Shown here one piece after another: positions 17,379 to 20,215 of a DNA stretch of 40,849 nucleotides. The stretch spans positions 1 through 40,849 of the forward strand of contig JASGLT010000018.1 in NCBI GenBank assembly GCA_030156945.1, in the 5' to 3' direction. The notes below the pieces were generated by a model that was given only the letters and a program-made list of their open reading frames with translations, did not search any database and was not told the DNA's origin. Within the stretch, counting starts at the first letter, position 1. Each line of letters opens with the position of its first letter. A program made the position numbers and the translations under genes. Source of the DNA: Thermococcaceae archaeon. Lineage in GTDB: Archaea; Methanobacteriota_B; Thermococci; Thermococcales; Thermococcaceae.

Positions 17379-17987
17379 ATGAGAATGGCGGAGGCGATAA
17401 CATCCCTGAAGAACGTCGAGAAGAGGGCCGAAAAAGAGTACCAGAACCTGCTAAAGGCCCTAAACTCCCCGGAATATGCGGATCTCAGAGTGCTCTTAAT
17501 GAGAATGGCCCTGGACACCATGCTCCACAGGAGAATAGTCGAGGCAATAGAAAAAGCCTACAAGGATTCCATTAAGCTGATCGAGAAGTTTGGATACGGA
17601 GAAGTCCCCGAGATACCCGAGGACGCGCCCAGACTCCAGGTTTCAAGCGATTTAGTCCTAATCCCCGGAATGCCAGCGTTGCCGGTGGGGCACTATGGCT
17701 TCCTCGGTGGCAGAATTCCCCCAGAGGACGTTCTAAAAGAGATCATCGATGTTATAAACAGGAAAGTTGTGCTGCCCCCAGAGAAAATAAAGGAGGTGGA
17801 GAGCATTCTGAAGAAGATTCAGGAGCTCTCAAAAGAGATGGCAGAACACTACAGGGAGCTTGAAAAGAGGGCAGTCCATCCAATAATCCAGTCTATAGCT
17901 GAGGCCGCCCTCAAGAATGAGGAGCAACACAGAATCGTGGTCGAAGAGCTCTTAGAGGAGTACTCAAAAAAGCCGTCAAAGAGCTAA
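17379..17987 (+). CDS. all-helical protein, possibly ferritin-like
   Basis: A 202-residue protein I cannot assign with certainty. It seems to form four long helices, in two pairs split by a Pro/Gly-rich middle (residues 75-120). Helix 2 has ALDTMLHRRIVEAIEKAY and helix 4 has NEEQHRIVVEELLEEY. Both put a His after acidic residues, and the second has the ExxH pattern of ferritin/rubrerythrin-like di-iron carriers. Helices 1 and 3 also carry suitable glutamates. A metal-binding ferritin-like fold is plausible but unproven. The in-frame GTG at 17370 lies within the ribosome binding site, so ATG 17379 is preferred. Its end overlaps the convergent lysO gene by 12 bases. Confidence 0.7.
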   Translation: MRMAEAITSLKNVEKRAEKEYQNLLKALNSPEYADLRVLLMRMALDTMLHRRIVEAIEKAYKDSIKLIEKFGYGEVPEIPEDAPRLQVSSDLVLIPGMPALPVGHYGFLGGRIPPEDVLKEIIDVINRKVVLPPEKIKEVESILKKIQELSKEMAEHYRELEKRAVHPIIQSIAEAALKNEEQHRIVVEELLEEYSKKPSKS

Positions 17988-18557
17988 AATGATTGGGACT
18001 ATAAACGGCACTATGGCAGTCAGGATAAAGCCGTGAACAAATGCCACAAGTCCCGCTTCCCTGCCTCCAAATTTTGTTATTACCGGAAGAGTCGTGTCCA
18101 TTGTCGTTGCACCCCCCATAACCACCGCCTTTTCCTTCGGAACCCAACGTATCACAATGGGATAAAGGATTATCGTCAGTATTTCCCTCATGAGATTGCC
18201 CAGAAAGCCTATGGCACCGTAGACGGCTGAATACTTGGCTATAAGAGGACCCGTTATCGAGTACCATCCACAACCTGCCCCTATTGCAAGGCCCCATTTG
18301 AGATCAGTCCCAAGGATTACTGCACCTATGGTTCCCCCGACTATGGAACCCACCAGGGTCTCCAGAGGCAGAACCAGAGATTTTTTCCCAAGTCTTTTGA
18401 TTTCTTTCGAGTTTATGCTCATCCCCAGGTCAACCCCGATGAGGAGTATGAGAACGTCGAGCATGATTTCATAGGTGTTGCCGAAGTCGGGATGAAGAAA
18501 ATAACCCACCAAAACACCGGCAATAAGGGAGATGAGAACGAAATACAGGATTCTCAT
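17976..18557 (-). CDS. LysO-family lysine exporter, large C-terminal half
   Basis: A 193-residue membrane protein (DUF340/LysO family) with about six hydrophobic segments and the family motifs GVDLGMS near residue 42, GAGCGWYSITG near 93, and GGATTMDTTLPVITKFGG near 148. In E. coli LysO (YbjE) one polypeptide of about 300 residues exports lysine and thialysine; here the N-terminal part is a separate gene just upstream, overlapping by 4 bases (ATGA). The two products presumably assemble. The substrate is inferred from the family. Confidence 0.85.
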   Translation of the reverse strand: MRILYFVLISLIAGVLVGYFLHPDFGNTYEIMLDVLILLIGVDLGMSINSKEIKRLGKKSLVLPLETLVGSIVGGTIGAVILGTDLKWGLAIGAGCGWYSITGPLIAKYSAVYGAIGFLGNLMREILTIILYPIVIRWVPKEKAVVMGGATTMDTTLPVITKFGGREAGLVAFVHGFILTAIVPFIVPIILAL

Positions 18558-18793
18558 TTACTCACCCCCAGCGCGACCACCATGCTCCCCAGAACTGTCA
18601 AAACTGCAAACAGGAGTGAGGAGCCAAGAAGCCACAGCGCGTCAACCTTAACCTCCCCCGTCTTCACGCCCAGGAAAAATATCATAAGGACTAAAGCCGC
18701 GTTTGTTGGCACTTCTAGGCTAACCCTTTTACCTTTCCTTCTGAGCAGATAGCCTATTCCCAGGCCCAGCAAAAGGAAGACGAAAATGTTCAT
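18554..18793 (-). CDS. LysO-family transporter, small N-terminal half
   Basis: A 79-residue membrane protein with about three hydrophobic segments; residues 30-48 (ALVLMIFFLGVKTGEVKVD) match the N-terminal part of LysO. Its TGA stop overlaps the ATG of the large half. TATA-like TTTTATTAA at about 18815-18824 puts transcription start at the ATG, and there is no ribosome binding site, so the mRNA is probably leaderless. Confidence 0.8.
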   Translation of the reverse strand: MNIFVFLLLGLGIGYLLRRKGKRVSLEVPTNAALVLMIFFLGVKTGEVKVDALWLLGSSLLFAVLTVLGSMVVALGVSK

Positions 18794-18828
18794 GTTAGGG
18801 GGAACGTGAGCAGGTTAATAAAATTATC

Positions 18829-18891
18829 GGGCTCGGAGGGTGTTCACTTCATCATATCTGGGGTCAGAATGCTTGCTACTCGTCATCGCCC
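18829..18891 (-). ncRNA. candidate box C/D-type small RNA
   Basis: Read on the minus strand from 18891, the sequence has a C-like box GCGATGA, 15 bases, a perfect D' box CTGA, 8 bases, a perfect C' box ATGATGA, exactly 12 bases, then a D-like box CCGA. GGGC at the 5' end can pair with GCCC at the 3' end. Archaeal C/D RNAs guide 2'-O-methylation through the bases upstream of D and D', usually 12 nt. A TATA box 20-30 bases upstream predicts transcription start exactly here, and AT-rich sequence follows. The C and D boxes each depart from consensus by one base. Targets are unknown. Confidence 0.5.
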
Positions 18892-18910
18892 ATTAAAGTT
18901 TGCCGGAATA

Positions 18911-18920
18911 CTTTTAAAGT
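18911..18920 (-). promoter_or_regulatory. promoter of the candidate C/D small RNA
   Basis: Minus-strand TATA-like ACTTTAAAAG predicts transcription start near 18889-18891, the 5' end of the C/D-like RNA. No protein start codon lies within 90 bases downstream, which favours an RNA gene over a long leader of lysO. Confidence 0.5.
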
Positions 18921-19015: not shown

Positions 19016-20215
19016 ATGATCAAACCTTCTGAAAGGGCCATGGGTGTTGAGTACGCCATAAGGGATGTCGTCCTCCCGGCGAGGGAACTTGAGAAGAAGG
19101 GTATTGAAGTAATCAGGCTCAACATAGGCGACCCTGGGAAGTACGACTTCCAGCCGCCGGAGCATATGCAGGAAGCCTACTGCAGGGCGATAAAGGAAGG
19201 GCACAACTACTACGGACCGAGTGAAGGTCTCCCCGAGATGAGGGAGGCCGTCGTCCAGCGCGAGAAGAGGAAGAACGGCGTGGACATCACCCCCGATGAC
19301 GTCCGCGTCACAACTGCAGTCACCGAGGCACTTCAGCTTCTCTTTGGCGCGCTTCTCGACCCTGGAGACAACATCCTTGTTCCAAGCCCGAGCTATCCCC
19401 CTTACACCGGCCTCGTCAAGTTCTACGGCGGAATACCCAACGAGTACGAGACAGTAGAGGAGAACGGCTGGCAGCCGGACATTGACGACATGAGGAAGCG
19501 CATAAACGAGAGGACTAAGGCGATAGCCGTTATCAACCCCAACAACCCCACGGGAGCGCTCTACGAGAAGAAGACAATAAAAGAAATACTTGATCTGGCG
19601 GGTGAATACGACCTTCCAGTCATCAGCGACGAGATTTATGACCTCATGACCTACGAGGGGGAGCACGTTTCTCCGGGCTCGCTAACCAAGGACGTTCCCG
19701 TTATAGTAATGAACGGCCTCTCCAAGGTCTACTTTGCAACCGGCTGGCGCCTGGGCTACTTCTACTACGTTGATGCTGAAAACAAGCTCGCTGAGGTCAG
19801 GGAGGCCGTTGATAAGCTAATGCGCATAAGACTCTGTCCCAGCACCCCGGCCCAGTTCGCGGCCATAGCAGGTCTAACGGGCCCCATGGACTATCTGGAA
19901 GAGTACATGAAGAAGCTCAGGGAGAGGAGGGACTACATCTACAAGCGCCTGACGGAGATACCTGGAGTGAGCACCCAGAAGCCGCAGGGAGCCTTCTATA
20001 TCTTCCCGAGGATAGAGGAGCGCTCCAAGTGGAAGAGCGACAAGGAGTTCGTCCTTGATGTGCTCCACGAGGCCCATGTTTTGTTCGTCCACGGTTCGGG
20101 CTTCGGAAGAGCTGGTAACTGGCACTTCCGCATAGTCTTCCTGCCGCCGGTTGAGATACTGGAGAAGGCAATGAACAGGTTCGAAGAGTTCATGATAAAG
20201 AGGCTGGCGGAGTGA
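19016..20215 (+). CDS. aat: alanine aminotransferase
   Basis: PLP-dependent class I aminotransferase of 399 residues, closely similar to the P. furiosus alanine aminotransferase. That enzyme makes alanine from pyruvate and glutamate as an electron sink during fermentation. The cofactor lysine is Lys237 in NGLSKVYFATGWR; Asp205 (ISDEIYD) and Asn177 (NPNNPTG) are the other cofactor contacts. A GTG at 19004 is the Shine-Dalgarno region (GTGGTGAT); ATG 19016 is used. TATA-like GGTTTTTATG at 18975-18984 puts transcription start near 19005, just before this ATG. Confidence 0.94.
   Translation: MIKPSERAMGVEYAIRDVVLPARELEKKGIEVIRLNIGDPGKYDFQPPEHMQEAYCRAIKEGHNYYGPSEGLPEMREAVVQREKRKNGVDITPDDVRVTTAVTEALQLLFGALLDPGDNILVPSPSYPPYTGLVKFYGGIPNEYETVEENGWQPDIDDMRKRINERTKAIAVINPNNPTGALYEKKTIKEILDLAGEYDLPVISDEIYDLMTYEGEHVSPGSLTKDVPVIVMNGLSKVYFATGWRLGYFYYVDAENKLAEVREAVDKLMRIRLCPSTPAQFAAIAGLTGPMDYLEEYMKKLRERRDYIYKRLTEIPGVSTQKPQGAFYIFPRIEERSKWKSDKEFVLDVLHEAHVLFVHGSGFGRAGNWHFRIVFLPPVEILEKAMNRFEEFMIKRLAE

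Follow-up and report, generated by a model that had tools for sequence, protein, structure and literature searches.

A conserved C/D box guide RNA of Thermococcaceae with predicted targets at U2552 and position 2491 of 23S rRNA

The locus described here lies in a 40,849-base window (the whole stretch of Thermococcaceae DNA that was analyzed), between an alanine aminotransferase gene on the plus strand (positions 19016 to 20212; NCBIfam equivalog) and the lysine exporter gene lysO, which runs downwards from position 18793 on the minus strand and is recognized by the Pfam Lys_export profile. The window's lysO is split into two overlapping minus-strand genes (17976 to 18557 and 18554 to 18793), the 193-aa gene matching Lys_export strongly (198.9 bits) and the 79-aa gene weakly (19.3 bits, under the cutoff). 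Between the aminotransferase gene and lysO, 35 nt from the latter and on the same strand, is a C/D box guide small RNA (sRNA) of 63 nt (18829 to 18891, minus strand), which scores 79 bits with our covariance model R1. Read 5' to 3' on the minus strand, the element comprises a TATA box, TTTAAAA (18912 to 18918), then 20 nt, and then GGGC-G-ATGACGA-GTAGCAAGCATT-CTGA-CCCCAGAT-ATGATGA-AGTGAACACCCT-CCGA-GCCC (18891 to 18829). These segments are, in order, the 5' half of a terminal stem (GGGC, 18888 to 18891), the C box (ATGACGA, 18880 to 18886), the 12-nt D' guide GTAGCAAGCATT (18868 to 18879), the D' box (CTGA, 18864 to 18867), a variable D'-C' loop of 8 nt, CCCCAGAT (18856 to 18863), the C' box (ATGATGA, 18849 to 18855), the 12-nt D guide AGTGAACACCCT (18837 to 18848), the D box (CCGA, 18833 to 18836), and the 3' half of the stem (GCCC, 18829 to 18832), which pairs with GGGC. 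A first-pass annotation had proposed a C/D-like small RNA over positions 18829 to 18920; all four boxes, their order, the 12-nt C'-D spacing, and the GGGC/GCCC pairing are indeed present on the minus strand, and the RNA proper occupies 18891 to 18829, the remainder of that interval up to 18920 being promoter.

The same annotation had correctly read the CTGA, ATGATGA, and CCGA boxes but had taken GCGATGA, shifted by 3 nt, as the C box. We assign this box to the overlapping ATGACGA instead, because that register alone provides a D' guide of 12 nt, so that both guides have exactly this length, and a 3-nt GAU bulge; the alignment to the Rfam sR3 model has this register too. As read from the sequence, the terminal k-turn then consists of the GGGC/GCCC stem, the GAU bulge, tandem G.A pairs (G.A followed by A.G), and a G-C pair between base 6 of the C box and base 1 of the D box. 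With this correction of the C box, the site is confirmed as encoding an archaeal C/D box sRNA. Both the C box ATGACGA and the D box CCGA are one base off the consensus (RUGAUGA and CUGA, respectively), and like variants are found across the 84 homologous loci that we compared. Of the four pairs of the terminal stem, the outer one alone varies, changing from G-C to A-U in 7 of 32 aligned rows. The folding energy of the RNA is the same as that of shuffled sequences (z = -0.01), k-turns being outside what such an energy test models.

Sequence searches revealed that this RNA is a near-constant feature of the Thermococcaceae. The covariance model R1, like the stem-pair counts above, is based on 32 of 66 distinct sequences that were picked for diversity, and it retrieved the sRNA at full length from 89 of the 94 family genomes, always with 71 bits or more; no other match in the search exceeded 33 bits. 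All 74 family genomes with a completeness of 90% or more and a contamination of 5% or less carry the sRNA, versus none of the 10 such genomes outside the family, and the five family genomes that yielded no full-length match (G003, G036, G052, G082, and G085) are incomplete (61 to 82% completeness), G082 having a fragment of the sRNA at a contig end. A phylum-wide search recovered one weak match outside the family (G097:C217:10033-10091, 28.1 bits); the genome that carries it belongs to the same class but to a different family, and the match is perhaps another C/D sRNA. We took 84 of the 89 full-length loci with their flanks for further analysis, and these all enter the promoter, lysO, loop, and k-turn counts given below, while the box and guide counts use 83 loci, L008 being outside the position filter. 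The D' box CTGA is invariant in all 83, the C' box conforms to RTGATGA in 82, and the D box is CCGA in 63, CTGA in 18, and CAGA in 2. Both guides are 12 nt long throughout (83/83), with positions 2 to 11 of the D guide and positions 4 to 11 of the D' guide invariant in every parsed locus. The D'-C' loop, on the other hand, varies from 3 to 11 nt (3 nt in 34 loci, 8 to 11 nt in 48, and 5 and 6 nt once each). Fixed guide cores combined with a variable loop are typical of guide RNAs rather than coding sequences. The letters GCTCAC are common to many of the 10-nt loops.

The promoter element is conserved along with the RNA. A TTTAAAA element matched at 6 or more of its 7 positions is found no more than 45 nt upstream in 79 of the 84 loci, versus 5 of 168 control windows, and the spacer between it and the stem is 19 to 23 nt long in 77 of those 79 loci. 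Transcription in Thermococcus kodakarensis is described as beginning about 23 bp downstream of TATA boxes (PMC4247193), and the 5' end of the sRNA is therefore expected at or near the stem. The claim that the RNA has a promoter of its own is thus borne out by its conservation.

One of the relatives, G024, can be identified as the published T. kodakarensis genome because its rRNA and sRNA coordinates agree with those in print: its 16S and 23S genes fall inside the rRNA junctions given in PMC9014305, and its R1 match (G024:C1:963853-963915) corresponds to sR31, alias Tko-sR31, for which Table 1 of that paper gives a circular junction from 963853 to 963919. Judging from sequence, the window sRNA is the orthologue of this RNA. 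The two share 90% identity over query positions 33 to 111 when the window DNA is used as the query (E value of 1.1e-25); all four boxes and the D' guide are the same, as are positions 1 to 11 of the D guide. They differ in the base with which the D guide begins (C in T. kodakarensis, A in the window), in the base that precedes the C box (A and G, respectively), in the sequence of the D'-C' loop, and in the 3' end, which is printed 4 nt longer. The ends that we assign to the sRNA coincide with the terminal stem and match the circular junction printed for T. kodakarensis to within the 5 nt given for it. For sR31, PMC9014305 reports 562,648 aligned reads in the wild type, a drop in circular reads from 4,655 to 34 upon knockout of the ligase, and a dependence of in vitro ligation on terminal pairing. 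Transcription and circularization are thus in print for the T. kodakarensis counterpart. The same Table 1 lists a start site for Tko-sR31 at 963842, credited to Jager et al. 2014, which precedes the mature end (963853) by 11 nt and is 13 nt from the TATA center, a distance too short for the usual archaeal promoter; the mature end itself lies 24 nt from the TATA center. Either a longer precursor is transcribed from 963842, or transcription begins directly at the mature end. In the main texts of the literature that we searched, no printed target for Tko-sR31 was seen.

Since the genome's own assembly yielded no match to 16S or 23S rRNA, rRNA targets were sought in relatives. We found two sequences complementary to the guides in the 23S (LSU) rRNA, identical and 61 nt apart in all 24 LSU copies from 23 genomes. 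The relative G002 has two 23S copies at different places (L130 and L141), the other genomes with a match having one; an LSU search of the relative G093 yielded no match. Pairing of the D guide with LSU positions 2644 to 2655 of T. kodakarensis (target GGGGTGTTCACC) comprises an uninterrupted run of 10 Watson-Crick pairs and one G-U pair, and the nucleotide placed by the N+5 rule is a U (U2648 of that LSU locus) that aligns with U2552 of Escherichia coli rrlB, in the A-loop. The D' guide forms 9 Watson-Crick pairs with LSU positions 2583 to 2594 (target GAGGCTTGCTAC), upstream of the D target, and its N+5 nucleotide is a C (C2587) that aligns with E. coli position 2491. We take the D target to be in helix 92 (the A-loop) and the D' target in helix 89. 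A null model that permits G-U pairs proved too lax, as 80% of random 12-mers reach 8 pairs under it, and we used Watson-Crick pairs only: of 4,000 random genomic 12-mers, 1.4% reach 10 such pairs anywhere in SSU and LSU rRNA, and 0.2% reach 9 at a distance of no more than 100 nt from the D target. The first-pass suggestion that the complements of the guides be sought in rRNA and tRNA was thereby rewarded for the rRNA but not for the genome's own tRNAs, which we set aside as targets because the best runs, with G-U allowed, were 7 for the D' guide and 6 for the D guide among the 30 of 42 tRNA loci scanned.

On the basis of this complementarity, the A-loop U2552 is very likely the target of the D guide, and position 2491 the probable target of the D' guide. 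The former has precedents: according to PMC2584109, Gaspin et al. (2000) predicted that sR25 of Pyrococcus abyssi directs methylation to U2669, the equivalent of E. coli U2552, and Dennis et al. 2015 (PMC4644070) give A-loop U2552 as a predicted target for five out of seven other archaea. As the window RNA and sR25 share their predicted target nucleotide, we take them to be probable orthologues. Taken together, these observations make it highly probable, in our view, that the locus encodes a dual-guide archaeal C/D box sRNA that is expressed from its own TATA promoter and addresses both 23S sites. The RNA would be transcribed from this promoter, and L7Ae, Nop5, and fibrillarin would assemble on its C/D and C'/D' motifs; the D guide would then pair with the A-loop and place U2552 for 2'-O-methylation, and the D' guide would pair 61 nt upstream and direct the same modification to position 2491.

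The position of the element just upstream of lysO allows it to be read differently, as a cis-acting leader in which a k-turn bound by L7Ae controls the lysine exporter gene, rather than as a free guide RNA. Archaeal leader k-turns bound by L7Ae have been described (PMC5539422), and some of the snoRNAs predicted in T. kodakarensis lie within 5' untranslated regions (PMC4247193). However, lysO is downstream of the sRNA in only 41 of the 84 loci and was not found in the other 43, while the sRNA is intact in all of them. Moreover, a TATA-like element, TTTTATTAA (18815 to 18823, minus strand), is located between the sRNA and lysO, with its center about 26 nt upstream of the lysO start codon (ATG at 18793); it is probably a separate lysO promoter outside the sRNA, and elements resembling it are visible in the relatives that have lysO. 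Because lysO was not found downstream in about half of the loci and has this TATA-like element of its own, we conclude that the sRNA is not a lysO leader. The conserved guide cores, for which a leader k-turn would have no need, and the accumulation of the T. kodakarensis counterpart as a separate circularized RNA (PMC9014305) argue in the same direction. With no constant linkage to lysO, a leader or riboswitch is largely refuted, and we consider it very improbable. The first-pass annotation had looked to the boxes upstream of lysO in sibling genomes as a mark of conservation and to a long lysO leader covering the region as the opposing outcome; what the relatives keep is the sRNA, not its association with lysO, and such a leader is disfavored. 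Smaller still, to the point of being negligible, is the probability that the boxes came together by chance in an intergenic region, an idea refuted by the presence of the RNA in nearly all family genomes; the pattern RTGANGA-N12-CTGA-N8-RTGATGA-N12-CNGA, moreover, has a single occurrence in the window and does not turn up in any of 100 dinucleotide shuffles.

If the guide RNA itself is accepted, it might yet be that the D guide alone works on 23S rRNA, with the main target of the D' guide being a 16S site or none at all. Position 3 of the D' guide is mismatched to the 23S (A opposite G) in 77 of the 84 loci, being paired in seven loci of genus g3 (which we take to be Pyrococcus), and 7% of random 12-mers attain a 9-base Watson-Crick run when such a run is taken in isolation. 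In the 16S, positions 572 to 583 of T. kodakarensis (GGGGCTTGCTGG) can form 8 pairs with the D' guide, including one G-U, which makes that site a possible second target. Yet the pairing with the 23S is the longer in every comparison, with 9 versus 7 Watson-Crick pairs for the guide of the window and 10 versus 8 for the g3-type guide, and the invariant T at position 11 of the guide pairs with an A in the 23S but only wobbles with a G in the 16S. The 61-nt distance between the two 23S sites is also in keeping with the nearby targets that dual guides usually have, according to a review (PMC7994747). We therefore regard a D' guide working mainly elsewhere as unlikely, if clearly less so than a lysO leader, and prefer the reading in which both guides address the 23S.

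Three routes to Um2552 are described in PMC12123411, and the agents named there and in PMC2584109 include RlmE/FtsJ (COG0293), RlmR (COG0566), Spb1, and yeast snR52. RlmE/FtsJ, RlmR, and Spb1 are stand-alone enzymes, whereas snR52 is a guide RNA like that of the window. A fibrillarin gene is present in the genome under study (337 bits). Searches of nine Thermococcaceae genomes with the FtsJ profile returned weak matches only, the best at 38.4 bits, and the 2 of the 54 listed matches that were identified, including the best, are both RsmB-like m5C methyltransferases. Going by these two, an RlmE-type enzyme for U2552 is not apparent in the Thermococcaceae, where Um2552 seems to depend on an RNA guide instead. 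The modified A-loop nucleotide lies where aminoacyl-tRNA docks. Our results amount to a family-wide confirmation of a likely guide RNA for Um2552, which is among the most conserved of ribosomal marks.

The RNA had been called unannotated, and this stands only with respect to Rfam, which at gathering thresholds has no match in the window; the T. kodakarensis counterpart is known under the names given above, and the sRNA is an unlabeled member of a known family, ordinary and well conserved. With relaxed thresholds, the only Rfam matches on the sRNA were SNORD60 and box-driven matches to sR families. Among these, sR3 (RF01133) has the same C/D box layout, but both of its guides differ from those of the window RNA, and the match rests on the boxes, with 27.2 bits versus a gathering score of 41. 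We rejected an identity with sR3, a different guide family, on account of the subthreshold score and the different guides. Despite these different guides, sR3 scores at or above gathering on 6 of the 18 homologous loci given (L090, L110, L111, L118, L119, and L120), and automatic annotation would consequently mislabel those six as sR3. The 84 sequences with their promoter could form an Rfam family, given that the window copy escapes Rfam at gathering thresholds and that some of its relatives are called sR3.

A departure from the usual archaeal pattern is seen in the terminal k-turn, at the pair that follows the tandem G.A pairs (base 5 of the C box and base 2 of the D box). Archaeal C/D k-turns are reported to prefer U.U strongly here (PMC5689011), and snoReport requires at least one U at this pair (PMC7994747), a rule that C.C RNAs would fail. 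The window RNA has C.C in place of the usual U.U, as does the expressed T. kodakarensis copy. Across the 84 loci, this pair is C.C in 51, A.C in 11, C.U in 11, U.U in 6, G.C in 2, A.A in 2, and G.U in 1. Within the genus of the window, C.C is found in 42 of 58 loci, and any U is kept in only 1 of 58. All six U.U terminal k-turns belong to g3, the homologues of which have the same D guide core as the window RNA but differ from it in this pair (U.U in 6 of 7 loci) and in having C at D' guide position 3 (7/7). In the internal C'/D' motif, U.U is kept in 83 of the 84 loci, the window RNA among them. A C at position 3b is reported to permit k-turn folding in metal ions alone (PMC4382518). By this rule, the C.C k-turn could conceivably fold before L7Ae binds, which would change the order of assembly, and it may favor end-to-end circularization; whether the genus as a whole has shifted its guide-particle assembly in this way is a speculative proposition, to which we assign a low probability.

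The genome contains further candidates for such RNAs. The half pattern CTGA-N3..12-RTGATGA-N12-CNGA has 13 matches in it, including the sRNA described here, and none in a reversed-pattern control. Read directly, the terminal pair in these 13 is U.U in five, C.C in four, C.U in two, G.U in one, and A.U in one. With C.C in 4 of the 13, the loss of U.U is therefore not peculiar to this RNA, and we treated the U.U pair as a usual, not a defining, feature of an archaeal C/D box sRNA. The other twelve candidates are L142 and L144 to L154, and all 13 have, by eye, a C-box-like motif upstream.
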